In this document: piece by piece, positions 271 through 14,745 of the stretch
Position numbering within the stretch: the first letter of the stretch is position 1
Layout of the letters: each line of letters opens with the position of its first letter
Notes under the pieces: generated by a model
Told to the model about the DNA's origin: nothing
Databases searched by the model: none
What the model saw: only the letters and a program-made list of their open reading frames with translations
NCBI GenBank assembly: GCA_016870795.1
Contig: VGAJ01000008.1
Coordinates: 1-35,533, forward strand
Source: Actinomycetota bacterium
GTDB taxonomy: Bacteria > Actinomycetota > Actinomycetes > Nanopelagicales > Nanopelagicaceae
DNA length: 35,533 nucleotides
Reading direction: 5' to 3'
Translations under genes and position numbers: made by a program

Positions 271-846
271 ATGGAAAAGCGATCTCTTACAGAAGGTAGT
301 TGGCTCAATCCCCCACTAGAGACTAAATTAATCGATCAGGGTTTATTGGTTACAGCTAAAGAGAATTCTGACTTTTGGCAGAAGACCTCCTATGGATTTG
401 TGCATCACTCGGGGCATGCCTTACTAAATGACTTTGAAAACGATAGCGCTGTTGAGGCTACCTGGCTTCTTGATTACCGCCATCAATTTGATCATGCCGG
501 TTTAATGGTCTATAGCGATGAGAAGAATTGGATTAAGGCTGGAGTGGAGTTTGCTGATGGCGCTCCGCAGCTGGGCGCAGTGGTAACTAGAGAAATCTCC
601 GATTGGTCTGTAGCTCCAGTGCCACTCTGGATGGATAAGAAAATAGAGATTCGTTTTAGTCGCTCTGGTGATGCTTTAACCATTAGGGCTAGATGCCAGG
701 GACCTTGGCAACTTGTTCGCCTTGCCCCATTAGATATTGATAGAGAATGGAAAGTAGGAATCTTCTGCGCAAGCCCGCTTCGCTCTGGGCTCTCAGTTTT
801 ATTTACTGATTTAAAGACTGGTCCGGCAGATAGCGCGCTCCATTAA
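271..846 (+). CDS. DUF1349 family protein (YesU-like, concanavalin fold)
   Basis: This 191-residue protein matches what I know of the DUF1349 family: a W-x-K-T-x-Y-GF segment near residue 37, the FDHAGLMVYSDEKNWIKAGVEF-type core around residues 74-94, and a C-terminal strand region (VGIFCASPLRSG). The family is thought to have a concanavalin-like beta-sandwich fold, and members are often encoded beside sugar-use genes. Its biochemical role is not established, so carbohydrate binding is inference. There is no signal peptide, so it is cytoplasmic. It starts at ATG 271 behind an AGAAGG site and heads the rightward block of the sugar island, 72 bases before the ABM-domain gene. It could be an accessory lectin-like or mutarotase-like protein for the imported sugar. 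Confidence 0.8.
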   Translation: MEKRSLTEGSWLNPPLETKLIDQGLLVTAKENSDFWQKTSYGFVHHSGHALLNDFENDSAVEATWLLDYRHQFDHAGLMVYSDEKNWIKAGVEFADGAPQLGAVVTREISDWSVAPVPLWMDKKIEIRFSRSGDALTIRARCQGPWQLVRLAPLDIDREWKVGIFCASPLRSGLSVLFTDLKTGPADSALH

Positions 847-918
847 TTTGCTTCCTCTTGGAATGCGGCTTGGAAATCACTACCTTTGGCTTTAAGAAAC
901 TGAGAGGAATTTAGAAAA

Positions 919-1230
919 ATGGTTATTACAGCAATTTTTGAGGCAAAGCCTGGCAAAGCCGACCAACTACGAAAAGAGCTAGAAAATGGCGCCCGGCAAT
1001 CTTGGCAAGAGGCGGGGGTTTTAAGTTATGCCGTCCATGAGTTAAGTGATAAACCGGGAGTATTTATGAATATCGAGGTCTACCGCGATGAGGATGCCTT
1101 TAAATCTCATTTAGATTCTCCTCATGTAAAGGCGTTTTTAGGAATGCTTGATGACTTATTGGCTAATCCTCTTACGGTTTATCAAGCAAAGGCTCTCTTC
1201 GCTGGAGAAAATCCTAAATCGAGCATTTAA
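919..1230 (+). CDS. ABM-domain protein (YgiN/LsrG-like)
   Basis: This 103-residue product has the ferredoxin-like alpha/beta pattern of the antibiotic-biosynthesis-monooxygenase (ABM) family. It opens with the beta strand MVITAIFEAKPGKADQL, has a helix ending in E-x-x-xR, then YAVHELSDKPGVFMNIEVY and the SPHVKAFL segment near residue 67. Relatives include YgiN (quinol monooxygenase) and LsrG, which isomerises phospho-AI-2. In a sugar locus with an LsrF-like aldolase, an FGGY kinase and an LsrB-like binding protein, an LsrG-like isomerase role is more attractive than oxygenation, but this is inference. GAGAGGA lies 10 bases before the ATG at 919. The gene ends 11 bases before the DeoR-type regulator and is probably co-transcribed with it. 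Confidence 0.82.
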   Translation: MVITAIFEAKPGKADQLRKELENGARQSWQEAGVLSYAVHELSDKPGVFMNIEVYRDEDAFKSHLDSPHVKAFLGMLDDLLANPLTVYQAKALFAGENPKSSI

Positions 1231-1241
1231 AGGATTTGATG

Positions 1242-2012
1242 ATGAGACGACTACTCTCAATTGAGCGACATCAGAAAATATTAGAGCGCGTTGCTTCAGA
1301 GGGAGCGGTTGATTTCATAAGTTTGGCTGAGGAACTTGGTGTTTCATCAATGACAGTTCGGCGAGATGTCAGGGTTTTGGAAGAGAACGGTCACATCACA
1401 ACAACCCGTGGTGGCGCATCTGCCCAGGTGACAAACTCGCGAGAGATACTCTCCCACCCTAGGGCTCAAGATCAGAGCATTGCTAAATCTCAGATTGGAC
1501 AATTTGCAGCATCGCTGATTGAAAAAGGAGAGGTGATATTTCTAGGCACTGGATCTACTACAGCAATCTTTGCTCAATTCCTTCCTGCAAATTTAGATCT
1601 GACGGTGATAACTCCATCCTTGCCTCATGCCTCAGTCCTAGCATCTAGAGGTATTAAAGTTATTAGTACTGGTGGCCTAATTGCGACAGCAGATCTAGCT
1701 CAGACTGGTGTGATCGCTCAGGATGCGCTGACTAGATTTTTTGCCACTCGGACAGTAATTGGATCTGGAGGAGTTTCTAAGAGTGGTGGGCTTAGTGAAT
1801 TCGATCAGGTTGTTGCTGACTTAAACCGAGTAATGATTGAACGAAGCGAGGAAACAGTAGTTCTAGTTGATCCTTCAAAGATCGGAGTTACTGCGCCATA
1901 TCGAGTAGCTGGGATTGAGGTTGTTGAAGAATTCATCACTTCAGATAGCGGAAAAACACTCTTTCGAAAGGAGCTCGGAGCAAAAGCGAGGATCTTGGCA
2001 CCAAAGTCATAA
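1242..2012 (+). CDS. DeoR-family transcriptional regulator
   Basis: The product (256 aa from ATG 1242) has the two-part DeoR layout. An N-terminal winged HTH carries I-E-R-H-Q-K-I-L and L-A-E-E-L-G-V-S-S-M-T-V-R-R-D (about residues 6-45), followed by the TTRGGA wing. The C-terminal DeoRC sensor has the phosphosugar-binding LGTGST motif near residue 100. Such regulators normally repress a sugar operon and are released by a phosphorylated intermediate. Three in-frame starts are possible (TTG 1236, ATG 1239, ATG 1242). AGGA at 1231-1234 gives 7-base spacing to 1242, which I prefer. It lies inside the catabolic block, between the ABM and BtpA-family genes, so it probably controls this island and may bind one or more of the inverted repeats noted at 243-256, 2022-2034 and 13015-13035. 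Confidence 0.92.
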   Translation: MRRLLSIERHQKILERVASEGAVDFISLAEELGVSSMTVRRDVRVLEENGHITTTRGGASAQVTNSREILSHPRAQDQSIAKSQIGQFAASLIEKGEVIFLGTGSTTAIFAQFLPANLDLTVITPSLPHASVLASRGIKVISTGGLIATADLAQTGVIAQDALTRFFATRTVIGSGGVSKSGGLSEFDQVVADLNRVMIERSEETVVLVDPSKIGVTAPYRVAGIEVVEEFITSDSGKTLFRKELGAKARILAPKS

Positions 2013-2065
2013 CATTTTGTTACACTTTATGTGTTATTATGTGTGCCCTACGAAAGGGCAGAGTC
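2013..2065 (+). promoter_or_regulatory. Intergenic control region before the BtpA-family gene
   Basis: ACAC-TTTAT-GTGT at 2022-2034 is an inverted repeat, with a further GTGT at 2041-2044. TATTAT at 2035-2040 resembles a -10 box and abuts the repeat. No good -35 is seen. This arrangement fits an internal, operator-controlled promoter. It also argues against starting the next gene at ATG 2039, which lies within the putative -10 box. GGGCAGAG at 2056-2063 can serve the TTG at 2066. Confidence 0.4.
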
Positions 2066-2869
2066 TTGGCAATCGCGTTATCGTCCATTTTTTCGGCAAG
2101 AAAACCAATTATCGGAATGGTTCACCTGCCAGCATCCCCCGGCCAAGCACAGGCAAAGAGTCAACCAGATCTCAAGCAAGTCATTGCCTCTGTTAGAGCC
2201 GATGTTGTTGCTCTGCAAGATGGCGGAATAGATGGACTGCTATTTTGTAATGAGTCTGACCTTCCCTACACCACAAAACTGAGCTCAGAAGTTGGTGCTT
2301 GGACTAACTTTCTAATCGGAGCCCTCTACGACGAATTAAAGATTCCTTACGGCGTCAATCTTCTATGGGATCCAATTGCTTCAATCGAAGCGGCTGCTGG
2401 ATGTGGCGCTTCATTTGTTCGCGAAGTTATGTGTGGCTCTTTTGTTAGTGAAATGGGCCCCCTGACACCAAATCCAGCTCTAATTGCTCAAACCAGAACT
2501 AGGTTGAGAGCAGAACACATTGCGCTATTTACCAATATTGTCCCTGAATTTGCATCAGCTTCAGAGGCAAGAAGTGTTGAGCAAAGAGCTATAGCTGCTG
2601 AGTATTTTGGTTTTGATGCCATTTTGATTTCAGGGCCAGTTGCTGGAGTTGCTTTTAGCGACGCTGACTTACTTGCTGCTAAATCCACCGCGAAGCAAAT
2701 ACCTGTCTTTGCAAATACTGGGGTCAATGCTAAAAATATTGCCAAAACCCTTGAGGTTGCTGATGGGGTTATCTCTGGAAGTGCAATGAAAATTGATGGC
2801 AAGACCTTCAACCCAGTAGATCCAAAACGAGTAATTGAATTAGTTCAAGCTGCAAGTAAATCGCGTTAA
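2066..2869 (+). CDS. BtpA/SgcQ-family TIM-barrel protein
   Basis: The product (267 aa from TTG 2066) shows the BtpA/SgcQ signature: KPIIGMVHLPASPG near the N-terminus, DGGIDGLLFCNESDLPY, then GVNLLWDP, SFVREVMCGSFVSEMGPL and a C-terminal phosphate-site-like stretch, VFANTGVNAKNIAK and GVISGSAMKIDG. These proteins are predicted TIM-barrel enzymes. BtpA was named for photosystem I accumulation in cyanobacteria, while SgcQ sits in a cryptic E. coli sugar operon; the reaction is unknown to me. The frame can be extended to ATG 2039, but that would start inside a putative promoter. It is 22 bases upstream of the dehydrogenase gene. Co-location with M42, DeoR and kinase genes points to carbohydrate metabolism rather than photosynthesis. 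Confidence 0.87.
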   Translation: MAIALSSIFSARKPIIGMVHLPASPGQAQAKSQPDLKQVIASVRADVVALQDGGIDGLLFCNESDLPYTTKLSSEVGAWTNFLIGALYDELKIPYGVNLLWDPIASIEAAAGCGASFVREVMCGSFVSEMGPLTPNPALIAQTRTRLRAEHIALFTNIVPEFASASEARSVEQRAIAAEYFGFDAILISGPVAGVAFSDADLLAAKSTAKQIPVFANTGVNAKNIAKTLEVADGVISGSAMKIDGKTFNPVDPKRVIELVQAASKSR

Positions 2870-2891
2870 TTCTTTCGATTAGGAGTTAGTT

Positions 2892-3779
2892 ATGGCCAGA
2901 GTTAGCTTTATTGGACTAGGAATTATGGGATCAGGAATGGTCTCAAATCTGCTCAAAAGTGGACATCAGGTAAAAATCTGGAATCGCAGTGAAAGTAAAT
3001 CGCGGGAATTAGAGAAATTAGGGGCTGAGGTAGTCGCAACTCCTGCGCTTCTGGCAGAAGGGGCGGATTACTTTATGTATTGCCTTGCAGATGATGCGGC
3101 GATATCTGAAGTTATTACTGGCGGCCATAAAATGGCAGAGTTGACAAAACCAGGAACTATTGCAATCGACCTTTCAACCATAGATCCCAAAACCAGTAAT
3201 GTTGAAAGGGCCATTTATGAGAGTCGTGGCGTGGAGTTTCTGGATGCTCCAGTATTTGGAACCAAAGGTGAAGCTAGAGATGGTGGCCTCTGGGTTGTAG
3301 TCGGGGGCAAAGAAGAGATTTATCAGAAAGCTCTGGAGGTTTTAAACCCCATCAGTGCAACTACTCATTACATGGGTGATGGTGGAAGCGGAACAAAAAT
3401 GAAATTAGTAGGTAATCTCCTAGTTGCCTCACAAATTGTCTCTATTGGTGAGGCCCTGGCTCTGGCCAAAAAAGCTGGATTGGATTTAAGAAAGGTGTTA
3501 GAGGTCGCGGCAGTAGCTGACTTCAAAACTCCTATTTATGCTGGAGTTGGCGGCGCAGTCATTGCAGGAGATTACGAAGTCAATTTCCCTTTGAGGTTAA
3601 TGCTTAAAGACTCCAGATTGATTCAAGAGTTTGCCGAGAGATTGTCATCTCCAGCCACCATCGCTGCAATTACAGAAGATTTAGCAAAAGATGGCGTAGA
3701 TGCAGGCTATGGTGAGTTAAATGCCTCAGCGATTGTCAAGGTAATCGCCCAACGGGCTGGAGTTGACCTTAGTGAGTAA
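2892..3779 (+). CDS. NAD(P)-dependent beta-hydroxyacid dehydrogenase (GarR/HIBADH/YihU-like)
   Basis: This 295-residue protein is a standard-length 3-hydroxyisobutyrate/tartronate-semialdehyde reductase relative. The Rossmann fingerprint is SFIGLGIMGSGM at residues 5-16. The substrate loop DAPVFGTKGEARDGGL near 116-131 replaces the usual DAPVSGG sequence. GSGTKMKLVGNLL near 166 carries the catalytic Lys with its Asn partner, and FPLRLMLKD lies in the C-terminal helical domain. The Ser-Gly to Phe-Gly change in the substrate loop suggests an unusual substrate. It is preceded by AGGAG and overlaps the following aldolase gene by 8 bases. Within the island it would reduce or oxidise a small aldehyde acid such as an aldolase product. 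The exact substrate is unknown. Confidence 0.88.
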   Translation: MARVSFIGLGIMGSGMVSNLLKSGHQVKIWNRSESKSRELEKLGAEVVATPALLAEGADYFMYCLADDAAISEVITGGHKMAELTKPGTIAIDLSTIDPKTSNVERAIYESRGVEFLDAPVFGTKGEARDGGLWVVVGGKEEIYQKALEVLNPISATTHYMGDGGSGTKMKLVGNLLVASQIVSIGEALALAKKAGLDLRKVLEVAAVADFKTPIYAGVGGAVIAGDYEVNFPLRLMLKDSRLIQEFAERLSSPATIAAITEDLAKDGVDAGYGELNASAIVKVIAQRAGVDLSE

Positions 3780-4599
3780 AAAAAGAAGCAAGATGTTTAA
3801 TTCAAAGTCTGGCAAGTGTATAAATATTGCTTTAGATCTAGGAATTTTTGGTGACCGCAGTTTTGCTAAAGGTATCGAGAATTTATCAACAGCTCTTCCT
3901 GAAATTCTTAGGGAAAAACCTGATGTAATTCAGTTAAACCCTGGTGGTTTAAAGATTTTCAATAAATTAATAAATAAGCCTCCAATATCAGTGGCGCTCC
4001 GACTTGATGTCACAAATGTCTATGAACCTCGAAAAATTGAGCATGCTTGGGATACTGCAAATATCGCCACTCTTGATCTGGCCTCTGACCCAAAAGTAGC
4101 TTGCGTGGTCCTAAATCTTCTTAACTTTGATGAGAACTCCCGACTACAAGAGCAATGCATTGAAAATATTCAAATCGTTGCCGCTAGGTGCCAAAAATTA
4201 TCAATTCCTTTAATGATTGAACCCTTGGTCATGACTGTAAAACCAGGAGCAGGCTCAACTTCAGTAGGAGAAGTTGGGAAAATTGCTGCACTGGTTAGAC
4301 AGGCAGTTGAGCTAGGTGCTGACATTATTAAGGTAGATGCCACCACGCCAATGAGTGATTTTGGCCAGGTTGTTGAAATAGCTTCTGGGGTTCCAGTTCT
4401 AGTACGAGGCGGAGGCCAGGTTACTGCTAGAGAATTATTGGAAAGAACACGAATTGCCATGGATGTAGGAGCATCTGGCGTTGTTTATGGAAGAAATGTT
4501 GTCCAGCACCCAACCCCGGCAAAGTTCATAAAGTCCATCAAAGCTGTTGTTCATGAGAATGCTTCAGTGGACAAAGCTCTCAAGATCTTAGAAGGATAA
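3772..4599 (+). CDS. Class I aldolase, DeoC/LacD/LsrF-like
   Basis: The product (275 aa from GTG 3772) belongs to the DeoC/FbaB aldolase superfamily. The likely Schiff-base lysine is K187 in ADIIKVD. The phosphate-binding C-terminal part is VLVRGGGQVTARELLERT followed by AMDVGASGVVYGRNVVQHP, typical of LsrF, DhnA-type and IolJ-like proteins. The usual N-terminal DHG motif reads D-L-G here (residues 22-24), so the conserved His is missing. GGAG at 3759-3762 supports the GTG start, which overlaps the upstream stop codon (GTGAGTAA), implying translational coupling. It probably splits a phosphorylated ketose into two small fragments that the neighbouring reductase and dehydrogenase could handle. 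LsrF itself acts as a thiolase on processed phospho-AI-2, so transfer chemistry is an alternative. Confidence 0.85.
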   Translation: MSKKRSKMFNSKSGKCINIALDLGIFGDRSFAKGIENLSTALPEILREKPDVIQLNPGGLKIFNKLINKPPISVALRLDVTNVYEPRKIEHAWDTANIATLDLASDPKVACVVLNLLNFDENSRLQEQCIENIQIVAARCQKLSIPLMIEPLVMTVKPGAGSTSVGEVGKIAALVRQAVELGADIIKVDATTPMSDFGQVVEIASGVPVLVRGGGQVTARELLERTRIAMDVGASGVVYGRNVVQHPTPAKFIKSIKAVVHENASVDKALKILEG

Positions 4600-4602
4600 T
4601 TT

Positions 4603-5631
4603 ATGACAGAGATCATGAAGGCTGCTGTTATCACTGAGATTAAAAAGGTAAATGTAATTGATGTACCAATGCCAAAAATTGGTCCGCGTGATGTCTTACT
4701 AAAGATCAAGTCTGCTGGGTTGTGCACCTGGGAGCAGAGGATCTATACCGGTCAAGCAAAAGCTGAATATCCTTTTTTAGGTGGCCATGAAAATGCTGGA
4801 GAAATCGCTGCCGTCGGAGAGTTAGTTACAAACGTTGCAGTTGGTGATCGCGTCACAATGGGCTCATCTGCTTGTGGCACCTGCCGAGCATGCCTACGTG
4901 GAGAAGATAAAGGTTGTGCCGAGCACTTTCTTAATTTTTCTTTAAAAGGTGGCATCTATGGCCCAGGTGGTTTTGCGGAATATAAAGTTCATCGTAGCGA
5001 CGGGGTATTTACTGTGGCAGATGCGCCCTGGGATAAAGCAGCCCTGGCAGAACCGCTCTCCTGTGCAATTCACGCAGCACGCCTACTAGGTGCCAAATTG
5101 GGCGATACCGCTGTTGTTTTTGGCTCCGGAACTATGGGTCTAATGAACCTTCTGGTTTTAAAGAAATCCGGATTACGCGTTGCCGTTGTCGATGTCAATG
5201 AAGACCGTCTGGAAAAAGCAAAAAAGCTTGGCGCTGATTTAGTTTTTAAATCAGATGAGAAAATCAGAGAGAGAATAAAGGGTGCATTTTTAGGAGGCGT
5301 TGACTATGCAATTACTGCATACGGAAGTGATGACGTTAACCAGGATGCTCTTGATGTGCTAAACAACCGAGGCAAAATTTGTCTCTTTGCCTCTGCCCAC
5401 CCTGTCGTGCCATTTGCGATAGATCCAAATGTTATGCACAACAAAGAAACATCAGCTGTGGGTGTAGTGAGCGCAGATCGTTGTGATCATGCCCTAGCTA
5501 CCGAGATGATTGCTCACAATCAAATTGATTTATCGGAGCTAATTGATGCAACGTATCCACTATCCCAAGCTCAGGAAGCATTTCATAGAGCTACCTCAAC
5601 ACCAAGTTATCGAGTAATGCTCAATCCCTAA
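4603..5631 (+). CDS. Zinc-dependent medium-chain alcohol/polyol dehydrogenase
   Basis: This 342-residue MDR enzyme has the catalytic-zinc ligands C41 (GLCTWE), H62 and E63 (GGHENAG), a complete structural-zinc loop C-x2-C-x2-C-x7-C (about residues 86-100), and the nucleotide fold GSGTMG near 175. The acid after strand 2 (VVDVNEDR) favours NAD over NADP. Sorbitol, threonine and threitol dehydrogenases share this form, so oxidation of a polyol or secondary alcohol is expected. AGGA lies a few bases before ATG 4603, and only 3 bases separate it from the aldolase gene. It ends exactly against the convergent kinase gene. In the island it could oxidise the imported polyol before phosphorylation, or handle an aldolase product. 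Confidence 0.9.
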   Translation: MTEIMKAAVITEIKKVNVIDVPMPKIGPRDVLLKIKSAGLCTWEQRIYTGQAKAEYPFLGGHENAGEIAAVGELVTNVAVGDRVTMGSSACGTCRACLRGEDKGCAEHFLNFSLKGGIYGPGGFAEYKVHRSDGVFTVADAPWDKAALAEPLSCAIHAARLLGAKLGDTAVVFGSGTMGLMNLLVLKKSGLRVAVVDVNEDRLEKAKKLGADLVFKSDEKIRERIKGAFLGGVDYAITAYGSDDVNQDALDVLNNRGKICLFASAHPVVPFAIDPNVMHNKETSAVGVVSADRCDHALATEMIAHNQIDLSELIDATYPLSQAQEAFHRATSTPSYRVMLNP

Positions 5632-7167
5632 TCAATAATCAAGTTCGTGCAATTTATGCATTTGATTTTTTGTTGCATCATATAAAGAAGTGTAAATCTC
5701 ACTTAAGGGTCTATAGATTTCCGCTAATTTCTCGTCAGGATTTATGATCCGTGCTTTACCTTGCCAGGTACGAATCTCCTCAGGGCTCGAAACTAATCCA
5801 ACTGCCACACCCGCTAGTAACGCATCGCCATAGGATGCGCCAAAAGTTAATGGCGCAACCTCTTGAGGCACTCCAGAAATATCACTAATGGCTTGCAGCC
5901 AGATCGAGTTCTTTGTTCCGCCCCCAACTGACTTTATTGTTTTAGGCCGTGCTCCAATTGAAGTAAATAGGTCAACGTGCTGCTTAACGCCATGTCCCAT
6001 TCCCTCCAATATCGCGCGGAAAATATGGCCTCGAGAGTGAGTCAGGCTTAAACCAAAAATCATTCCTTTCGCTCTTGGATCCATTACTGGGGTTCGTTCG
6101 CCACTGAAATATGGAAGGACAATGACGCCTTCAGCTCCGGGTTTGGTTTCTGCCGCCTCTTTAACCAATTCAGCATATGCAGGGGCTCCACCAGATTTTT
6201 CTGCAGCCACCAATTCTGGCGCAAATTGATCCCTAAACCAGCGTGTTAATGAACCACTGGTTGCCATTCCTGCCAAGAGACACCAAGTTCCTGGGAAGAG
6301 ATAAGGCCCTGCCCAGAGCCGCTTCTCTCGTGCCTGATCATTATCGGTCACTTGAATCATAAATATTGTTGAGCCATACATCATCATCATTTCACCGGGC
6401 TTGGTTACACCAACGCTAAGAGCCTCAGCTCCAGCATCTATTGTTCCGACAGAAACTGGTGTTCCCTCAGCAAGTCCCGTTAGTTCGGAAGCTTTCTGCG
6501 TCACGTATCCAGCAAGCTCATGACTCCAAAGAATTTCAGGTAGCTGTTCTAAATTAACAAAATCGTGACAGAATTTATCACTCCACTTATTCTTCCAAGG
6601 ATCATACATCGGAACCATACAGCCTGCTGAAAAGTGATCAATTACAACTCTTGAGGTCAATCGAGCCACGATGAATGTTGTAGCGTCAACAAACCATCGC
6701 GCCTTTTTATAGACCTCTGGTTCATTTTTCTTGATCCAGAGAATTTTAGGACCAGTTGATTGCGATGATAGACAGTTTGCTGTGGCATTAAAAATTTCAT
6801 CTTCGCCATATTTTGCATTTAATTCATCAATCTCTTTTACCGCACGTGTATCTACTCCATAAAGAATTCCCATTCTTAATGGGTTGAAATTTTCGTCAAT
6901 CGGTAAGACATCTGGCCCAATGGCGCTTATTCCTACCCCTTTGACATCTGCCGCCACAACTCCAGGTGTACTTAAAAGTTGTTTTGTAATAGTACAAAAA
7001 TCTCCCCACCAAGTTAGTTCAGGATCATGTTCCGCCCAACCCGCGCGTGGAAACAAAAGTTGATGAGGAACAGCTACCTGAGCTCTTACCTCACCGGTGA
7101 CGGTGGTTAAAACACCTTTTGACTCATAGGTTCCAATATCAATTCCAAGTAGTAAGTCTTGAGACAT
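5632..7167 (-). CDS. FGGY-family carbohydrate kinase (xylulokinase-like)
   Basis: This 511-residue kinase has both FGGY halves. The N-terminal ATPase motif is LLGIDIGTYESKG (residues 5-17). The substrate-side segment is AGWAEHDPE. GTIDAGAEALSVG near 243 carries the catalytic-base Asp in the usual G-x-x-D context. PYFSGERTPVMDP follows, and the C-terminal adenosine motif is VGGGTKNSIWLQ near 418. It resembles xylulokinase and other ketose kinases; LsrK is in the same superfamily but less similar by eye. It is the last gene of the leftward transporter block, 34 bases after the M42 gene, with AGTAGG upstream of the ATG. Its TGA at 5632-5634 directly abuts the stop of the dehydrogenase gene. It probably phosphorylates the imported sugar or its keto derivative. 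Confidence 0.92.
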   Translation of the reverse strand: MSQDLLLGIDIGTYESKGVLTTVTGEVRAQVAVPHQLLFPRAGWAEHDPELTWWGDFCTITKQLLSTPGVVAADVKGVGISAIGPDVLPIDENFNPLRMGILYGVDTRAVKEIDELNAKYGEDEIFNATANCLSSQSTGPKILWIKKNEPEVYKKARWFVDATTFIVARLTSRVVIDHFSAGCMVPMYDPWKNKWSDKFCHDFVNLEQLPEILWSHELAGYVTQKASELTGLAEGTPVSVGTIDAGAEALSVGVTKPGEMMMMYGSTIFMIQVTDNDQAREKRLWAGPYLFPGTWCLLAGMATSGSLTRWFRDQFAPELVAAEKSGGAPAYAELVKEAAETKPGAEGVIVLPYFSGERTPVMDPRAKGMIFGLSLTHSRGHIFRAILEGMGHGVKQHVDLFTSIGARPKTIKSVGGGTKNSIWLQAISDISGVPQEVAPLTFGASYGDALLAGVAVGLVSSPEEIRTWQGKARIINPDEKLAEIYRPLSEIYTSLYDATKNQMHKLHELDY

Positions 7168-7201
7168 AATAAATACCTACTTTCTGGTCTTAATGAGTCG
7201 T

Positions 7202-8290
7202 TTATCCTCGTTGAAAATTCTCATTTTCAGGAAAGTTCTCCACTATTGAAACAAGTAATTTACCTAAATCCTCTAGATCATTTAGTGAGCAACTCTCTAC
7301 TCCTGAATGGGTGTATCTAGTTGGTAGTGCTAAATCAACACAAGCCACTCCCTCACCAACTAATTGCACATAGGAGGCATCGGTTAATAATCCGATTGTT
7401 GCATGACGTTGCAGTGTTATTTTCGAATCTTTCGCGCTCTTATCGACAACGCTGACTAATTTAGGATGGGGTATTAAGCCATTTAAAGTCCCGCGGCCAT
7501 GGAAAGTATAGGTACCAAGAACTGGTCCTGCTCCAACTCTTACGCCATTACCCTCGGCTATATCTGGAGTATCAGATGCTGCTACTAAATCGATACTGAT
7601 TGCAGCCAGTGGCTTTATCGACTGAGCTGCGACCATAGCACCTCGAAGATTAAATTCCTCTTGAACAGATCCCACAATATGAACTGTGATTGCAGGGCGT
7701 TTTTGTTTCAAATGTTTTGCCAGTTCTACCAATAAAGCACAGCCCCCACGATCATCAATTGAAGTTGCTGCAACACGGTCGTTTAATAGTCTGACAAAAC
7801 TAGGTCGGTATACAACTGGAGTTCCAATATCGACTCCCGCATCCAATACTTCCTTAATGCTTGTTGCGCCAATATCAACATAGCATTCACCTATGGGTTT
7901 TACTCGATATTTTTCATCTGGCGGCGTTAAGTGATGCGAGACAAAACCAATAACGCCTTCAACGTTCTTGCCCCCTTTGGCCTGAAGGAGAACATTCGAT
8001 GCGGCTAAAATTCTCTCGGGTACGCCACCTACCCGTTCGATTCTTAAATAGCCATTCTCTTCAATCTTCTTAACAATCATTCCGAGTGAATCGGTGTGAG
8101 CAAATACCATTAATGCCGGGGCTTTTGGATTGGAGCCTCTCACCGTTGCAATTACATTGCCTAAAATATCGACCCTTAATTCATCAACTAGGTCTTTAAG
8201 GTCTCTGGAGAGCTTTTTGATCATCTCGTCTTCGAATCCAGACATGGCTGGAGTGAGACAGTAATCTTGAAGTCTTTCAATCAGGGACAT
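7202..8290 (-). CDS. M42-family metallohydrolase (FrvX/SgcX-like)
   Basis: This 362-residue protein is a full-length M42 glutamyl-aminopeptidase-like enzyme. Two-metal ligands and catalytic acids are all visible: His in FAHTDSLG, Asp in SIDDRGGC, the E-E pair in SVQEEFNLRGA, Asp in AISIDLVAASD, and the C-terminal His in TRYTHSGVE. The common V-G-L-R-G after the E-E pair is F-N-L-R-G here. M42 members include tetrahedral aminopeptidases, but FrvX and SgcX are encoded in sugar-PTS operons of E. coli. Its place inside a sugar ABC operon (TAATG overlap with the upstream permease, 34 bases before the kinase) suggests it removes an amide-linked or acyl group from an imported sugar conjugate. That function is inference; plain peptide cleavage is the alternative. 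Confidence 0.9.
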   Translation of the reverse strand: MSLIERLQDYCLTPAMSGFEDEMIKKLSRDLKDLVDELRVDILGNVIATVRGSNPKAPALMVFAHTDSLGMIVKKIEENGYLRIERVGGVPERILAASNVLLQAKGGKNVEGVIGFVSHHLTPPDEKYRVKPIGECYVDIGATSIKEVLDAGVDIGTPVVYRPSFVRLLNDRVAATSIDDRGGCALLVELAKHLKQKRPAITVHIVGSVQEEFNLRGAMVAAQSIKPLAAISIDLVAASDTPDIAEGNGVRVGAGPVLGTYTFHGRGTLNGLIPHPKLVSVVDKSAKDSKITLQRHATIGLLTDASYVQLVGEGVACVDLALPTRYTHSGVESCSLNDLEDLGKLLVSIVENFPENENFQRG

Positions 8291-9315
8291 TATGACTCCA
8301 ATGACTTGTTGATGGATTTAGAGCGGCGTCTATTTTCTAATACAACATTGAATATCATGACTAGCACCAATACTCCACCCTGTGCTGCAAGATAGAAGAA
8401 TTGATTGAAGCGAAGAGCATTAAATCCGGATGCAACCATTTGTAACACAATTGTGGCCAAAACAACGCCAGTAACAGTCCCAAATCCCCCCATCGGATTT
8501 ACTCCACCTAAAACCACAACAACTATGGCTAAAAGGATATATGAATTTCCAAAGTCCGGACTTGCAGCAGACATGCGAGAAGCAATAATCAAGCCAGCAA
8601 GCGATGATAAGAGGCCTGAGATCACATAGGTCCAGGCTATAACCCTCTTATCCCCCATAACACTGTATTGAGCCGCCTTTCGATTAGTACCGATGAGGAA
8701 AATCTTTAAGCCCAAACTGCTCCGATTGATGATTAGGGCGACCAATAAAGCAATTAAGACCATGAGCACAAATGGCGTTGGCACACCAAAAAATGTTCCA
8801 TTACCGATACGAGCAAATTGCTCCGGAAGACCAGAGATAGAAACTCCGTTTGTTAATCCAATTGCTATGCCATTGAATAATGTGAGGGTTGCCAAGGTAG
8901 CTAATATTGGCGTGATGTTTAAAACAGCGATTAGAAGCGCATTGATACCACCGCAAATCAAACCAAGCAAAATACCAGCCAGGCATGCCATCAGAATCCA
9001 CAGATTCGTTATTTCTCCATCCTCACTCATATGTTTTGTAAGAATGTATGCGGCTAATAGCGCTGCCAGATTAGATGTTGCGACTATGGATAAATCTATT
9101 CCACCTGTGAGCATAGATAGCATGACTGCAATCGAGAGTATTGCTACCTCTGGGATTTGAAATGCCATCGAAGTGAAATTCTCCGGGGTAAAAAAGATAT
9201 CAGAGGAGAAGTAAGAGAAAATTAGAAGTACTAGAAGAGTAAAACCCATCAGCTGAGTTACTTTTCGATCTGATAAAAGGGTCGAGGAGGCGAACCGATT
9301 TCTTAACTCACTCAT
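8290..9315 (-). CDS. Sugar ABC transporter permease, RbsC family (second)
   Basis: The 341-residue polytopic protein has about 8-10 hydrophobic segments and the RbsC/AraH-type landmarks: MLTGGIDLSIVA after the second segment, a GINALLIAVLNITPILATLATL re-entrant part, and the ATPase-contacting LGGVNPMGGFGTVTGV loop near residue 270. It forms a heterodimeric channel with the adjacent permease. The basic tail (ENRRRSKS) agrees with a cytoplasmic C-terminus. Its start overlaps the upstream permease by 8 bases and its stop overlaps the M42 start (TAATG), so translation of the block is probably coupled. The substrate cannot be read from the sequence; relatives carry ribose, rhamnose, AI-2, erythritol and other small sugars. 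Confidence 0.93.
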   Translation of the reverse strand: MSELRNRFASSTLLSDRKVTQLMGFTLLVLLIFSYFSSDIFFTPENFTSMAFQIPEVAILSIAVMLSMLTGGIDLSIVATSNLAALLAAYILTKHMSEDGEITNLWILMACLAGILLGLICGGINALLIAVLNITPILATLATLTLFNGIAIGLTNGVSISGLPEQFARIGNGTFFGVPTPFVLMVLIALLVALIINRSSLGLKIFLIGTNRKAAQYSVMGDKRVIAWTYVISGLLSSLAGLIIASRMSAASPDFGNSYILLAIVVVVLGGVNPMGGFGTVTGVVLATIVLQMVASGFNALRFNQFFYLAAQGGVLVLVMIFNVVLENRRRSKSINKSLES

Positions 9316-10342
9316 TTGAATCTACCTCACCCTCTGAGAGAGCTCGACGTCTTTTATTGCGTCGACTTTCGCTGATGGCTTGAAGGGTTATTCCAATAAC
9401 CAGAAGAGCTCCAACAGCCGCTCGCTGCCAAGAACTACTAACGCCCAGAAGTACTAGATTGTTTTTGATTAAATTAATAAAGAGCACTCCTAGAACAGTT
9501 CCAAAAACAGTTCCATAACCACCCATGATGCTGGCGCCACCCAAGACAACTGCTGCAATGATGTCTAATTCAGATCCTGCTAGATCATAAGGATTTGCTT
9601 TCCTTTGCAACGAGACATACAAAATTCCAGCCAGTCCTGAAAGGGCACCAGCCAAGAGATAGATTTTTGTCTGAGTTCCTTTAACTGAAATTCCTAAACG
9701 GCGTGTTGGTTCTACTCCGCCACCTAAGGCGTAAACAGATCGACCAAAGAGCGTTCTACTTAAAATCAGTGAGATAAGAATTGTAATTATGGTTATAGGG
9801 ATGACCAGAACATGGAGTCGAACTAATGTGCCAGCTGCGGATTCAAACTTTACTAAATCTGCTGTTGAAAACTGATCGAGGGCAATAGGGATATCACTGA
9901 TGAATGAGGAGCCAATTAATGTCAGCATCAAACCTCGGAATATTCCGGCTGTTCCTAGAGTCGCTATTAGAGTAGGAATTCCAAACCCAGCAATAGCAAT
10001 TGCATTTACTCCTCCCAGTAGGGTGCCAATCACGATAGCTAAGACAATTGGGATCAAAAGACTCTCGCCATCTAGCTCAAACTTTTGCATGATAACCACG
10101 GCGGTATAGCCCGCAAATATTCCCACTATGGGAAATGAAACATCTATTCCACCGCTGATAATTACAATTAATACACCCAAGGCAAAAAGTAGTTGAACAA
10201 ATGATGATCTCAAGATGTCAAAAAGGTTGGCAAGTGTGAAAAACTCAGGACTCTTAGACCCAATTACAAGAGAAAATATCACGATAGCCAAAATGAGCAC
10301 AGTTTCGTTTCGCATTAATAATCTCTTTAAGTTGGGGTTCAA
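9308..10342 (-). CDS. Sugar ABC transporter permease, RbsC family (first)
   Basis: This 344-residue integral membrane protein is the partner permease. It carries VIISGGIDVSFPIVGIF, GVNAIAIAGFGIPTLIATL and the coupling-helix region LGGASIMGGYGTVFGTVLG near residue 270. The two permeases differ, so the channel is a heterodimer, as in LsrC/LsrD and the RhaP/RhaQ pair, rather than the RbsC homodimer. The start overlaps the ATPase stop by 4 bases (ATGA type), and the stop region overlaps the next permease by 8. It ends with a highly basic tail (ESRRNKRRRA). Nothing in the sequence defines the substrate. Confidence 0.93.
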   Translation of the reverse strand: MNPNLKRLLMRNETVLILAIVIFSLVIGSKSPEFFTLANLFDILRSSFVQLLFALGVLIVIISGGIDVSFPIVGIFAGYTAVVIMQKFELDGESLLIPIVLAIVIGTLLGGVNAIAIAGFGIPTLIATLGTAGIFRGLMLTLIGSSFISDIPIALDQFSTADLVKFESAAGTLVRLHVLVIPITIITILISLILSRTLFGRSVYALGGGVEPTRRLGISVKGTQTKIYLLAGALSGLAGILYVSLQRKANPYDLAGSELDIIAAVVLGGASIMGGYGTVFGTVLGVLFINLIKNNLVLLGVSSSWQRAAVGALLVIGITLQAISESRRNKRRRALSEGEVDSNE

Positions 10343-11835
10343 TTCAGCTCCTTATAAATCGCACTCTCGCTGATTTGATTATCAATAAATTCTTTGGAAA
10401 TTTTGCCATGTCGAATTACCAAAACTTTATGACAAATTTGCACTAACTCTGGAATATCATCAGAAACCAAGAGAAAAGCCATTCCAGCCTGTGCTCTATC
10501 TCGAATAATCTCAAGTATTTCACGCTTGGAACCAACATCGACGCCTACCGTTGGGCCGTTGAGAATCATGACTTTCGGGTTAATTGAAAGCCATTTAGCT
10601 AGGACTACTCTCTGTTGATTTCCGCCCGAGAGGGAGGAGACAGGATTGCTTGGATTTTTAGTTTTTATTCGTAGTTCTGAGATCCAAGAGCTTCCAATTT
10701 TCGCTAATTTCTTTTTTGATATAGATCCCCATCGACTCCTTTGCCTATCTAGTCCCACAGCAACAATATTGCGCAGAATTGATTGCTCAAGAAATAATCC
10801 TTGGGTTAATCGATCTGGTGGTACATAACCAATACCGGAAGCTAATGCCGCCTCTGGTGAATTTAGAGTCACCTCTTTTCCATCTACTTTAATAGAGCCT
10901 GCATCTACTGGGTATTGTCCAAAAATTGCCTCAGCTAACTCTGTTCGGCCTGAGCCAAGTAGGCCAGTTAATCCAATAATCTCTCCTTCGGAAATAGAGA
11001 AAGAAACATCATCAAAAGTATTTTTTGAAGTTAGTTTCTCAAGCTCTACAAGGGTTCGAGGATTTTTACCTAAAAGCGGCGCAATTCGAGAAGTTGCTAT
11101 CTCTGAACCGGTCATAGCCGTGGCTATCTCTTTAGCTTTAAAATCTGACATCAAACCTTCAGCTACTACTTCGCCATTTCGTAAGACGGTAATGGTGTTA
11201 CAGATCTCTTGAATTTCATCAATTTTATGGCTAACAAAAACAATTGCTACTCCACGCTTGCGAAGCTGGTCCACAACTTCAAATAGCTTCTTGACTTCTT
11301 TGCGAGTTAAAGCCGTGGTTGGTTCATCCATAAATAGCATCTGTACGCCCAAATTGGTGGCCCGAGCGATTGCTATTAACTGCTTAGATGCAATTGAGGT
11401 TTCAAGTAGAGGTGAGTTTATATCAATGTCTACGCCGATATGCCCCAAGGCCTCTTCAGCTATTTTCTTGGTCTCTTTTTTCCCAATAAATCTTGAAGAA
11501 TTCAATATGTTTGTTGGAAGGGCAATATTTTCAGCAACGGTTAAATTAGGAAGTAAGGAAAAATCTTGGAAGATTACCTGCACCCCTTCATTGACCGCTT
11601 GACGAGGAGATAGGTGAGTAAATTCTTTTCCTGCAAGTGTAATTAATCCAGAATCTGGGGCATGCACGCCTGACATAATTTTTATTAACGTTGATTTGCC
11701 GGACCCATTCTCGCCGGCAAGGCAGTGGACTTCTTCAGCGGAGACTGACATTGATACTCCCGCTAAAGCCTTTGCGCCTCCAAAGCTCTTTACAATATTC
11801 CTTACACTGTACTCAGCGGTTTGCGTGGCTAGCAT
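10339..11835 (-). CDS. Sugar ABC transporter ATP-binding protein, RbsA/MglA type
   Basis: This 498-residue protein contains two fused nucleotide-binding domains. Domain 1 has Walker A GENGSGKST (about residues 42-50) and Walker B MLFMDEPTTALT, but its signature motif is degenerate (TSIASKQ). Domain 2 has a degenerate Walker A (GLLGSGRTE), an intact signature LSGGNQQR, and a Walker B reading MILNGPTVGVD, where the catalytic D-E of the usual LDEPT is replaced by N-G. So only one composite site, Walker A/B of domain 1 with the LSGG of domain 2, looks competent. It follows a 152-base gap after the binding-protein gene and overlaps the permease by 4 bases. GGAAAGG precedes ATG 11835. Confidence 0.95.
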   Translation of the reverse strand: MLATQTAEYSVRNIVKSFGGAKALAGVSMSVSAEEVHCLAGENGSGKSTLIKIMSGVHAPDSGLITLAGKEFTHLSPRQAVNEGVQVIFQDFSLLPNLTVAENIALPTNILNSSRFIGKKETKKIAEEALGHIGVDIDINSPLLETSIASKQLIAIARATNLGVQMLFMDEPTTALTRKEVKKLFEVVDQLRKRGVAIVFVSHKIDEIQEICNTITVLRNGEVVAEGLMSDFKAKEIATAMTGSEIATSRIAPLLGKNPRTLVELEKLTSKNTFDDVSFSISEGEIIGLTGLLGSGRTELAEAIFGQYPVDAGSIKVDGKEVTLNSPEAALASGIGYVPPDRLTQGLFLEQSILRNIVAVGLDRQRSRWGSISKKKLAKIGSSWISELRIKTKNPSNPVSSLSGGNQQRVVLAKWLSINPKVMILNGPTVGVDVGSKREILEIIRDRAQAGMAFLLVSDDIPELVQICHKVLVIRHGKISKEFIDNQISESAIYKELN

Positions 11836-11930
11836 TTAAACCCGCCTTTCCTTTTCAATCAGGTTAGTTAAGCACTAATCGATTCTCAATATGAGTCTAC
11901 TGCGCCATGAGAAACGTGTCGTTAATGAAA

Positions 11931-11955
11931 GTGGGGCGCGGTGTGCGCGCCCCAC
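11931..11955 (-). terminator. Strong GC hairpin between binding-protein and ATPase genes
   Basis: GTGGGGCGCG (11931-11940), loop GTGTG, then CGCGCCCCAC (11946-11955) is a perfect 10-bp stem, the most GC-rich structure in this AT-rich intergenic space. Read leftward it is followed by TTTCATTAAC, too poor in T for a classical terminator. It lies 33 bases after the binding-protein stop. Position and strength suggest partial termination or a 3'-end stabiliser that lets the binding protein be made in excess over the membrane parts. That role is known for hairpins in other ABC operons and is inferred here. Confidence 0.7.
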
Positions 11956-11987
11956 AATCTTCCAACAACTAGCAAGCTAGCAAGTGC

Positions 11988-12983
11988 TTAGATGTTGTAC
12001 TTACTTGCGTTGTTCTTATCGACGATAACCCATGCAGCTCCATTGAAGCTCTTAGGATTTGTCTTGCTGACAGTGATCTTGTTATAGCCCTTAACTTTCA
12101 GGTTCATTCCAGCCTTAATTTTCTGTCCCTTGTTTAAAAGTTCCAGCATGTTAAGCATGGCCTGACCGGCAAGCGCTGAGTCCCAGAAGAAGATCTTGTC
12201 AATGGCACCTGTTTGCAGCCACTTATTTGTCATTGATGGAATTGATGTTCCCATCACGCAAACTTTGTCGTTTAGTCCGAGCTCCTCAACTGCTCGTCCA
12301 ATACCAACAACGTCATTGGCAGAAGACCCCTCAAATCCCTTGAGATCTGGATATTTCTTCAACAATTCTTTTGTCTTGTTGTAAGCAACATCGGCATCTT
12401 CTTTTGATTCAATTGGGTCTTCAACTCTTGTGATGTTTGGATACTTGCTCTTTGCTTGCTCGTAAGCTCCAGCAACCCACTCGTTATGGCTTCCATTGGT
12501 AAGTGTTCCAACAAATGCAACATACTTACCAGAATTACCCATACATGTGGCGAGGTTATCCATCATCACTGCGCCATAAGCAGCATTTTCGAATGCTTCA
12601 ATATTTGCATCTGCATTCTTTATGCCACCGGCTTCGTGAGTTACAACTTTAATTCCAGCTTTCTTTGCTTTCTTGATAACGCCATCAATCGAAGCTACAT
12701 CGTTGGGGACAATTCCGATTCCTGTTACTTTTTGAGCAATCAGGTCCTCAACCATCTTGGCTTGTTTTTCTGGTGAAGCATCTGTTGCGCCAGTCATGGA
12801 GGCGTCGATCTTGTTCTTCTTGGCCCAAGACTTGATTCCTTTATCCATATTGTCGAACCAGCCAACACCAATCAACTTAACAGAGATGACGTATCTCTTC
12901 TTAGCAGCTTGGCTTGTTGCCGTTCCAGTTGTCAGCAAAAGAGCAAACGCTGCACCAACTGCTATCCATTTCTTGTTATTCAT
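11988..12983 (-). CDS. Sugar-binding protein of ABC transporter, LsrB/RhaS-like
   Basis: This 331-residue type I periplasmic-binding protein has a Sec signal (basic start, hydrophobic residues 7-20, likely cleavage after SQA near residue 26). The mature start VISVKLIGVGWFDNMDKG and the body VTHEAGG, GTLTNGSHNEW and FEGSSANDVVG align by eye with LsrB. Of the six known LsrB contacts to AI-2, the first Lys is present, but the Asp-Gln pair is replaced by Ser-His and the Pro by Ser, so the ligand is probably not AI-2. No lipobox cysteine follows the signal, which is unusual for a Gram-positive transporter. ATG 12983 is preceded by AGGAG at 12989-12993. It is the first gene of the leftward transporter block. 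Confidence 0.93.
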   Translation of the reverse strand: MNNKKWIAVGAAFALLLTTGTATSQAAKKRYVISVKLIGVGWFDNMDKGIKSWAKKNKIDASMTGATDASPEKQAKMVEDLIAQKVTGIGIVPNDVASIDGVIKKAKKAGIKVVTHEAGGIKNADANIEAFENAAYGAVMMDNLATCMGNSGKYVAFVGTLTNGSHNEWVAGAYEQAKSKYPNITRVEDPIESKEDADVAYNKTKELLKKYPDLKGFEGSSANDVVGIGRAVEELGLNDKVCVMGTSIPSMTNKWLQTGAIDKIFFWDSALAGQAMLNMLELLNKGQKIKAGMNLKVKGYNKITVSKTNPKSFNGAAWVIVDKNNASKYNI

Positions 12984-13014
12984 TCATACTCCTAGGTTGT
13001 ATGGCCCTTATTGG

Positions 13015-13035
13015 GGGTCAACTTGTAATTGACCC
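13015..13035. promoter_or_regulatory. 21-bp palindromic operator candidate
   Basis: GGGTCAA (13015-13021), a 7-base centre CTTGTAA, and TTGACCC (13029-13035) form a perfect inverted repeat midway between the divergent binding-protein and dhaK genes; a further GGGTC follows at 13040-13044. The right arm overlaps the -35 box proposed for dhaK. The geometry fits a dimeric repressor controlling both directions. The DeoR-type protein of the island is the nearest candidate; binding is inferred. Confidence 0.6.
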
Positions 13036-13056
13036 GTTAGGGTCTAGCGGTATCTT
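13029..13056 (+). promoter_or_regulatory. Putative dhaK promoter
   Basis: TTGACC (13029-13034) and TATCTT (13051-13056) are separated by 16 bases, a reasonable -35/-10 pair. It would give a leader of roughly 95 bases. A second possible -10 box, TATAAA at 13121-13126, lies nearer to the ATG at 13160 but has no clear -35. The first -35 is inside the palindrome at 13015-13035. Confidence 0.4.
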
Positions 13057-13159
13057 TTCCCTTTTCACAAACAGAGTCAAGGTACCTGTGAAGTTTTGCT
13101 GGGCTCCATCACAAAATTGTTATAAACTCCCCACACCTCAAAGAGATAGGCTCGCTTTT

Positions 13160-14161
13160 ATGCAGAAAATATTAAACATCCCAAAAGAATTTGTTAGCGA
13201 GATGCTAGAAGGAATTCTTCAGGCATATCCAACCCAATTAAAAGCTGTAGACGGTGACAACCATGCCCTGGCTCGCGCCGATGCCCCGATTGCCGGCAAA
13301 GTTGGAATAACCACCGGAGGAGGCTCTGGCCATCTTCCTTTATTCCTAGGTTATGTTGGAAAAGGCTTACTCGATGGAGTGGCAGTTGGAGATGTTTTTC
13401 AAAGTCCGACAGCAGATCAGATGTTGGCGGTAACCAAGCAAGTTAATTCAGGTGCTGGAGTTCTCTACATCTATGGTAATTATGGTGGAGATGTTATGAA
13501 TTTTGATCTTGCTGCTGAGTTAGCTGGAGCTGAGGGAATTCGCGTTGAAACTATTCTAGGAGCCGATGATGTCGCTTCAGCTCCAAAAGGAGAAGAATCT
13601 CGCAGACGAGGCATTGCCGGAATTTTCTTTCTCTATAAAGTGGCAGGTGCAGCTGCAGCTGCAGGTAAGTCACTAGATGAAGTAGTTGCCATCACCAAGC
13701 GAGCTGCTGCCCAGACGCGAACAATGGGAGTAGCACTTAGCCCAGTCACTCTTCCAACCGTTGGACACCCCACATTTGAAGTCAAAGCTGGCGAAATGGA
13801 AATTGGCATGGGTATTCATGGAGAGCCAGGAATTAGAAAAGCTAAATTAGAGACTGCAGACCAGATTACTGCAGAACTAATCAGTGCAATAAAGAATGAT
13901 CTGTCATTAAAGTCCGGAGATAAAGTATGTGTTTTGATGAATAGCCTGGGAGCGACGCCTCCTGAGGAGCTATACATCATGTACCGTCAAGTAAAAAAGA
14001 TTTTCAGTGGCGACGGAATTGATGTAGCTAGGGTATATGTTGGTGAGTTTGCCACTTCGCTGGAGATGGCTGGTGCATCTATTTCAGTCATTAGAGTTGA
14101 CTCAGAACTACTTGGTTACATTAACGCCCCCGCCGACACTCCTTTCTTTACCCAGGTATGA
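13160..14161 (+). CDS. dhaK: Dihydroxyacetone kinase-type subunit DhaK
   Basis: The 333-residue product is a complete DhaK domain. RADAPIAGKVGITTGGGSGH carries the active-site His58. NYGGDVMNFD holds the catalytic Asp111. MEIGMGIHGEPG holds His220, which in E. coli DhaK (H218) binds the ketone covalently. The usual GGGSGHEP reads GHLP here, so the Glu after the first His is Leu. The frame runs upstream of ATG 13160 into the promoter and the opposite gene, so a longer start is rejected. DhaK and DhaL are separate, as in PTS-dependent systems, but no DhaM is present; ATP-dependent ketotriose or ketotetrose kinases (erythrulose kinase type) are plausible relatives. It overlaps dhaL by 4 bases (ATGA). 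Confidence 0.9.
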   Translation: MQKILNIPKEFVSEMLEGILQAYPTQLKAVDGDNHALARADAPIAGKVGITTGGGSGHLPLFLGYVGKGLLDGVAVGDVFQSPTADQMLAVTKQVNSGAGVLYIYGNYGGDVMNFDLAAELAGAEGIRVETILGADDVASAPKGEESRRRGIAGIFFLYKVAGAAAAAGKSLDEVVAITKRAAAQTRTMGVALSPVTLPTVGHPTFEVKAGEMEIGMGIHGEPGIRKAKLETADQITAELISAIKNDLSLKSGDKVCVLMNSLGATPPEELYIMYRQVKKIFSGDGIDVARVYVGEFATSLEMAGASISVIRVDSELLGYINAPADTPFFTQV

Positions 14162-14745
14162 GTGAATTTTCTGCGACTTTAGAGAAAGTAGCCAAGGCGC
14201 TGGAAAACAACTCAAAGAGATTTGAGGAGTTAGATTCAGCTGCTGGAGATGGGGACTTAGGTATTACAGCGGGAAAAATTGCTGAAGGAATAAGATCTGG
14301 CATTTCATTATCAACTGGAGATTTAAAGGCAGATCTCATGATGCTGGGCCGTGAAATTTCAAAGTCAGCGCCCTCAACCTTTGGCACTTTGTTTGCCACA
14401 GGTTTTATAAGAGCATCAGGGGTAGTTTCAAATGAATATTCTCCTTTAGAGAATGTTCAAAAGGGCTTCAAAGCTGCATTTGAAGGAATTGCTGCGCGCG
14501 GAAAAGCATCGATTGGTGAGAGAACTTTGCTCGATGCGCTAGCGCCGGCGCTAACTGCCCTAAATGATGCCAGCGATCTTCGATCCGGTCTCTCCTCTGC
14601 TGCAATAGCTGCCAGGGGTGGCGCAAAAGCAACAGCAGAGATGATGCCACGTCACGGTAGAGCGGGATGGATTGGGGAGAGAGCCAAAGGGCTTGAAGAT
14701 GCTGGAGCTAATGTGATTGCTGTTGTTTTTGAAGCTCTTCAATAA
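14158..14745 (+). CDS. dhaL: Dihydroxyacetone kinase-type subunit DhaL
   Basis: This 195-residue protein is the nucleotide-binding partner of DhaK. The metal-ADP site LDSAAGDGDLG provides D26, D31 and D33. SAPSTFGTLFATGF follows in the helical barrel, GERTLLDALAPA near residue 122 is a strongly conserved segment, and RAGWIGERAKGLEDAGA closes the family pattern. Length is normal for a stand-alone DhaL. It overlaps dhaK by 4 bases and no terminator hairpin with a T-tract follows. With DhaK it should transfer phosphate to a short ketose. In PTS-dependent enzymes DhaL keeps its ADP and is rephosphorylated by DhaM; without DhaM nearby it either exchanges ADP for ATP or uses a DhaM encoded elsewhere. 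Confidence 0.9.
   Translation: MSEFSATLEKVAKALENNSKRFEELDSAAGDGDLGITAGKIAEGIRSGISLSTGDLKADLMMLGREISKSAPSTFGTLFATGFIRASGVVSNEYSPLENVQKGFKAAFEGIAARGKASIGERTLLDALAPALTALNDASDLRSGLSSAAIAARGGAKATAEMMPRHGRAGWIGERAKGLEDAGANVIAVVFEALQ

Follow-up and report, generated by a model that had tools for sequence, protein, structure and literature searches.

What is taken up and broken down by a sugar island that combines an ATP-binding cassette (ABC) importer and two types of kinase with a BtpA-family protein and an M42 metallohydrolase? The island in question spans 14.5 kb (271-14745) of a 35,533-nucleotide stretch, here called the window, from contig VGAJ01000008.1 of an actinobacterium of the family Nanopelagicaceae (assembly GCA_016870795.1), a metagenome-assembled genome (MAG) of 1.05 Mb that is 79% complete. 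In this study, we show that the island is a truly conserved unit, not a chance grouping, and that it carries an ABC/FGGY variant of the core known from the sgc operon of E. coli; this variant is what is new, sgc itself being already known but unexplained. To judge from the sequences compared, the island probably encodes a small-ketose pathway with an sgc-type core. As to the complete stepwise scheme proposed below, of ketose uptake and breakdown built round that core, our confidence is evenly balanced.

When 84,980 species genomes were scanned with an alignment of BtpA, at least 585 relatives were returned. The best 80, a sample that leans to close relatives, were kept and joined by four loci from other genome searches, with flanks of up to 10 kb. 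An FGGY kinase gene is present in 76 of these 84 BtpA loci and an M42 gene in 57, in 55 of them no more than 1.5 kb from BtpA (the median gap being 48 bp). Around this constant core of BtpA and FGGY, with or without M42, the transporters are exchangeable: the window's version has a CUT2 ABC importer, Rhodobacterales/Rhizobiales loci have a CUT1 ABC transporter with FucU/ribokinase neighbours, L070, L091 and L011 a dipeptide-type ABC transporter, the Chloroflexi-type loci L020–L028 an amino-acid permease, and E. coli sgc a phosphotransferase system (PTS). The island, taken in the initial annotation for a one-off hybrid, is instead a widespread core fitted with one of several transporters. Moreover, BtpA, M42, FGGY, the CUT2 importer and DhaK/DhaL are found together in about a dozen other loci of Rhizobiales type, co-occurrence having been set beforehand as the point on which the idea could be refuted. 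In L029, L040, L042, L046, L055, L075 and L086 the order is DeoR–BtpA–permease–M42–FGGY–substrate-binding protein (SBP)–ATPase–permease–DhaK–DhaL. These Rhizobiales operons share core and importer parts with the window (identities of 41-46% for SBP, ~52% for DhaK and ~50% for FGGY and for M42), but lie on a single strand, and some end with an aldo-keto reductase or HIBADH-like gene in place of the aldolase/dehydrogenase block; no described function for them was found in the literature searched. L010, which comes from an actinobacterium in a different family, has M42–BtpA–SBP–ATPase–permease–permease–DhaK–DhaL without FGGY. The distance matrices of BtpA, M42, FGGY, SBP and DhaK are correlated (Spearman 0.73–0.94, raw values that include shared organism history), with no more than 2 of 300 permutations as high.

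E. coli K-12 sgcABCEQX-R is an orphan operon without an assigned function (PMC13343008), and no functional paper on BtpA/SgcQ/M42 clusters was found in the literature. The window's BtpA is homologous to SgcQ (35% identity) and its M42 protein to SgcX (38%), both of the latter carrying an HGRGTLxG insertion, and both loci have a DeoR regulator, that of the window being 26% identical to SgcR. However, sgc relies on a PTS, in place of which the window has the CUT2 importer and the FGGY kinase, a replacement correctly recognized at the outset. sgc also has the epimerase SgcE but no DhaKL, aldolase or dehydrogenases; no SgcE-like ribulose-phosphate epimerase is encoded in the window, and PF00834 was not found in the incomplete MAG.

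Judging from its streamlined size, its heliorhodopsin gene and the housekeeping genes beside the island, the MAG probably belongs to the acI (Nanopelagicaceae) group. In acI-type genomes, the order ABM–DeoR–BtpA–HIBADH–aldolase–MDR, then FGGY, is common to the window and three others, G006 (= L013/L007), L014 and L015, and where the contig extends beyond FGGY the order M42–permease–permease–ATPase–SBP is kept as well; most genes of L013–L015 are 68–86% identical to those of the window. Any BtpA at all is present in 6 of 60 relatives, and among the same-genus genomes searched, besides the window's own, only G006 has a close one (82%). Replacement substitutions in the island genes are much rarer than synonymous ones, which are saturated. 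The shared order and the few replacement substitutions thus indicate a sporadic but maintained accessory island. Its aldolase/HIBADH/MDR block is restricted to acI-type loci; the sister loci L016–L018 have a split transketolase in its place, and L016/L017 a KpsF-type isomerase. The L015 contig is titled 'Streptomycetaceae bacterium' and its acI-type island genes are mostly 68-86% identical to the window's, so that its taxonomic label is doubtful.

The binding protein of the importer suggests a ligand class. The SBP matches the D-ribulose-binding AauA structure 9I1M (1e-51), the complex of which has been published (PMC12307932), and five of the six AauA contacts to D-ribulose (K37, W43, E118, H167, E196 and S223) are kept, as K36, W42, E117, H166 and E195. 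All 30 SBP relatives that are not encoded in ribokinase/DeoC loci have His166, and almost all of these come from loci with DhaK and/or FGGY; the four ribose/deoxyribose-type SBPs compared, 5BRA included, all have Gln there. The pocket residues favour a ketose over ribose as the predicted ligand, with a C5 end unlike that of D-ribulose. Standard ribose uptake is unlikely, since the position of His166 is Gln in 5BRA, the nearest of the structures named for ribose, and in the RbsK/DeoC loci; nothing on the genomic context of 5BRA (Oant_2843) was found in the literature. The Rbl system of C. rodentium and the Aau system of enterohaemorrhagic E. coli share with the window a CUT2 importer, a related SBP with most of the D-ribulose contacts and an FGGY kinase, and the KpsF-type isomerase of L016/L017 resembles RblI (PMC12307932); unlike the window, they have no BtpA, M42, DhaKL or aldolase, and the window SBP differs at the C5-OH contact. 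It is conceivable, though we consider it unlikely, that the island simply takes up a free ketose, be it D-ribulose, D-xylulose or erythrulose, in the manner of Rbl/Aau, the SBP binding it, FGGY and DhaKL phosphorylating it, and BtpA and M42 being accessory. The near-AauA pocket, the pentulokinase-like FGGY, the RblI-like isomerase and a minimal importer+DhaKL locus (L119) all fit this explanation, but it offers no explanation for BtpA and M42, the best-conserved pair, neither of which Rbl requires, and does not account for M29 taking the place of M42 in three loci.

In the M42 protein, the dinuclear metal site and the catalytic Glu are intact (H65, D179, E211, E212, D234 and H328), and these residues are invariant in the alignment except in one sequence at H328. 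It carries the insertion HGRGTLNG, and the form F-HGRG-T-[LI]-x-G was present in all 51 BtpA-linked M42 proteins checked; SgcX has the equivalent YHGRGTLAG, and in our motif table the insertion is missing from FrvX, YpdE and the archaeal MJ0555. HGRGTLxG is thus a marker motif that parts SgcX-type M42 proteins from the others compared. In the reverse test, an M42 search in 396 actinobacterial genomes from which 30 M42 loci were fetched, the motif was found in two, both adjoining FGGY, and the 28 loci that lack it have neither BtpA nor FGGY next to M42 within the flanks fetched. The island's M42 gene is the only one found in the MAG. In three loci (L009, L070 and L091) the cluster lacks M42 and has instead an M29 aminopeptidase, which is unrelated to it; L009 otherwise retains the same SBP type, FGGY and BtpA. 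Since M42 and M29 are unrelated metallo-aminopeptidases, their exchange in these three loci suggests that the required step would be hydrolysis of an amine- or amide-type bond. Whether M42 acts on an amide- or amine-linked ketose is a matter on which we lean, tentatively, to the negative. A further pairing of a PTS with peptidases occurs in E. coli, where ypdE and ypdF (L123 6011-8133), both annotated as aminopeptidases, are adjacent and flanked by the PTS genes fryA and fryC.

The exchange of M42 for M29 bears on an Amadori-type pathway for pentose-glycated amino acids or peptides (ribulosamines), in which the conjugate would be imported, M42 or M29 would trim the peptide, FGGY would phosphorylate the ketose and BtpA would be a deglycase replacing FrlB. 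This is a somewhat weaker candidate than free-ketose uptake. It is consistent with the aminopeptidase swap, with the amino-acid permease or dipeptide-type ABC transporter of other versions, with an AP_endonuc_2 protein adjoining FGGY in the permease version, and with a parts list that parallels frl (PMC12632257). The permease and aminopeptidase versions suggest, by analogy only, the sugar-amine logic of transporter, kinase and sugar-phosphate enzyme seen in B. subtilis and E. coli frl. However, there is no SIS-family deglycase of the FrlB type among the island's annotated genes, the kinase is from another family, and DhaKL and the aldolase block fit no known frl pathway. By comparison, it is improbable that M42 is an ordinary peptidase that came by chance into a sugar operon made of unrelated pieces; M42 proteins are mostly aminopeptidases and the modules occur apart in some genomes, but the frequency of M42 in BtpA loci, its close spacing, the locus-specific insertion and the correlated divergence of the core proteins all argue otherwise.

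With regard to BtpA, it exceeds the TIGR00259 cut-off (183.7 against 153.4 bits). Because a PDB sequence search gave no significant match, a fold search was made with an AlphaFold (AF2) model built from 43 homologues (mean pLDDT 93.5), and the nearest solved folds were KDPGal aldolase, 3-hexulose-6-phosphate synthase (HPS) and ribulose-phosphate 3-epimerase (Rpe). These neighbours make a phosphosugar the likely substrate of the modelled barrel. None of the invariant residues (H29, N71, E72, D111, R128, E129, N166, E170 and K251) is a lysine of the inner barrel strands, an absence that tends to favour metal/acid–base chemistry. The BtpA loci also have ribulose-phosphate-type neighbours, namely the KpsF-type isomerase, ribose-1,5-bisphosphate-isomerase-like proteins and SgcE. 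In nine loci (L036, L039, L049, L057, L058, L069, L071, L077 and L080) a 6-phospho-3-hexuloisomerase-like SIS protein, the usual partner of HPS, is encoded near M42/FGGY. In L113-L116 (Actinomycetota), divergent BtpA homologues adjoin IF-2B/ribose-1,5-bisphosphate-isomerase-like genes in an arrangement unlike that of the window. The RefSeq label 'putative nucleoside triphosphatase' for SgcQ (L093 3112-3918) is not supported by the phosphosugar-barrel fold predicted for its homologue.

The FGGY protein is closest not to LsrK but to the xylulokinase model XylB, still below the cut-off (292.7 against 380), and is 49-51% identical to the kinases of alphaproteobacterial BtpA-M42-FGGY loci. DhaK retains the ketose-binding His in GIHGEPG (alignment to L. 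lactis DhaK), and DhaL the Mg-binding DGDGD-type motif as DSAAGDGD. PTS enzyme I was not found in the 79%-complete MAG, and the phosphoryl donor of DhaKL is thus probably ATP; a PTS-dependent DhaK was rejected on the same ground. In the LsrF-like aldolase, alignment to the LsrF structure shows the Schiff-base lysine to be retained (K190); the protein scores 81.2 against the LsrF model (cut-off 297). All NCBIfam equivalogs stay under cut-off for the HIBADH-like protein.

Taken together, the pathway may proceed as follows. The CUT2 importer would take in a small ketose of the pentulose/tetrulose class, free or conjugated, as the pocket residues suggest, and the SgcX-type M42 protein would cleave off a group joined to the ketose, the best candidate being an amino-acid moiety bound through an amide or amine. 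The FGGY kinase would phosphorylate the ketose at its far end, the role played by the PTS in sgc, and BtpA, a phosphosugar-type (beta/alpha)8 barrel, may process the phosphoketose as an epimerase, lyase or deglycase. DhaK/DhaL would phosphorylate a short ketose of the dihydroxyacetone/erythrulose class. In acI-type genomes, the LsrF-like aldolase and the two dehydrogenases could bring the product to the triose level, a place that the split transketolase would fill in sister loci, and the DeoR protein would regulate the island. It is possible to go further and suppose that the core of BtpA, SgcX-type M42 (or M29) and ketose kinase makes up a pathway, not described so far, that handles ketoses linked through an amine or amide (e.g. 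ribulose-amino-acid/peptide conjugates), with BtpA a new phospho-ketosamine-processing barrel enzyme and interchangeable transporters in acI bacteria, alphaproteobacteria and Chloroflexi; we regard this as doubtful, but if true it would explain the orphan sgc operon.

Several observations weigh against the ketose pathway with its hydrolytic step as we propose it. The sixth AauA contact, S223 to the C5-OH, is Ala/Gly, A222 in the window SBP, and D224 replaces a Gly two positions on, so that the ligand is possibly other than D-ribulose itself. The M29 swap is limited to three loci, and about 25 BtpA loci have neither M42 nor M29, which makes the hydrolase not obligatory. Dipeptide-type ABC transporters carry oligosaccharides among their cargoes too. 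The importer with DhaKL occurs without BtpA/M42 in L119, L121, S. meliloti pSymB, Paracoccus, Labrenzia, Ponticoccus, Shinella and R. tumorigenes, and the modules are thus able to work separately; no inducers of the pSymB locus were found in the literature. The island is made of two or three modules, which frequently occur as a set. Moreover, deletion of sgc in E. coli left growth unimpaired on 190 carbon sources (PMC13343008).

An autoinducer 2 (AI-2) uptake and degradation system of the lsr type is very improbable and was rejected, since, beyond a fold-level resemblance (E. coli and Salmonella lsr likewise combine a CUT2 importer, an FGGY kinase, a class I aldolase fold and an ABM fold) and RefSeq naming of SBP relatives, all matches to the LsrA/B/C/D/F/G/K equivalogs are far below cut-off (the ABM protein scores 26.9 bits against LsrG, cut-off 135) and four of the six AI-2 contacts are changed. 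The contacts of LsrB-type SBPs we take to be K35, D116, D166, Q167, P220 and A222, of which D116, D166, Q167 and P220 correspond to E117, S165, H166 and S220 in the window, only K and A being kept. Thus, of the hybrid of lsr and sgc first proposed, the sgc half stands on the homology of BtpA and M42 to SgcQ and SgcX and on the insertion shared by M42 and SgcX, and the lsr half falls; the proposal made then that a small sugar or sugar conjugate is broken down by a route not yet described is supported, and deblocking by M42 is plausible. In plasmid records L155, L156, L160 and L161, members of the SBP family carry the name 'autoinducer 2 ABC transporter substrate-binding protein' yet lie in DhaK/DhaL or RbsK/DeoC loci and are probably misnamed; such annotations in the window's SBP family need checking.

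The small-ketose pathway with an sgc-type core would give the most abundant actinobacteria of fresh waters one more carbon source. The marker motif, the screenable SBPs of the ABC/FGGY version and the ligand class suggested by the pocket make the sgc question testable outside E. coli.

The features of the island are collected in the table; profile matches, gene by gene, confirmed all the genes initially named, with their strands and order.

Table. Features of the sugar island in window coordinates
Feature	Positions	Strand	Profile match or note
DUF1349 protein	271..846	+	Pfam PF07081 4.8e-58; peripheral
ABM-fold small protein, distant LsrG relative	919..1230	+	Pfam PF03992
DeoR-family regulator	1236..2012	+	PF00455, PF08220
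BtpA/SgcQ-family phosphate-barrel enzyme (core)	2039..2869	+	TIGR00259
HIBADH/GarR-like (3-hydroxyisobutyrate/tartronate-semialdehyde-type) dehydrogenase, acI-specific block	2892..3779	+	PF03446, PF14833
LsrF/ADH-synthase-like class I (DeoC-family) aldolase, acI-specific block	3763..4599	+	PF01791
Zn-type medium-chain dehydrogenase (MDR), acI-specific block	4603..5631	+	PF08240, PF00107
FGGY ketose kinase, xylulokinase-like (core)	5632..7167	-	PF00370/PF02782
M42 metallohydrolase, SgcX type (core)	7202..8290	-	PF05343 3.6e-76
CUT2 ABC permease 2	8290..9315	-	PF02653
CUT2 ABC permease 1	9308..10342	-	PF02653
CUT2 double ATPase	10339..11835	-	PF00005 x2
Perfect stem-loop between SBP and ATPase genes	11931..11955	-	GTGGGGCGCG-n5-CGCGCCCCAC
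SBP, ketose-type pocket	11988..12983	-	PF13407 (Peripla_BP_4)
Perfect inverted repeat in divergent SBP/DhaK promoter	13016..13034		GGTCAA-N7-TTGACC; single exact copy in window
DhaK	13160 (likely start)..14161	+	PF02733 4.2e-118
DhaL	14158..14745	+	PF02734

Because the window's first base is also that of its contig, the left boundary of the island lies out of view. Among the fetched loci, the DUF1349 gene is present only in the window and L013/L007 (69% identity for the L013 homologue), and the ABM gene precedes DeoR in the window, L013, L014, L015, L017 and L018. The stem-loop, the stem of which is kept in L015 with a different loop, is an ordinary intercistronic hairpin. The inverted repeat in the divergent promoter is a candidate operator from its symmetry; no palindrome is shared by the island's promoters, this repeat being unique in the window. 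In L011, a same-family genome, a GH20 hexosaminidase gene (7742-9160) lies between the dipeptide-type ABC transporter and BtpA-FGGY. A heliorhodopsin gene is found at 23083-23853 of the window (PF18761, 1.1e-97), and one is near the island in G006/L013 too (57%).

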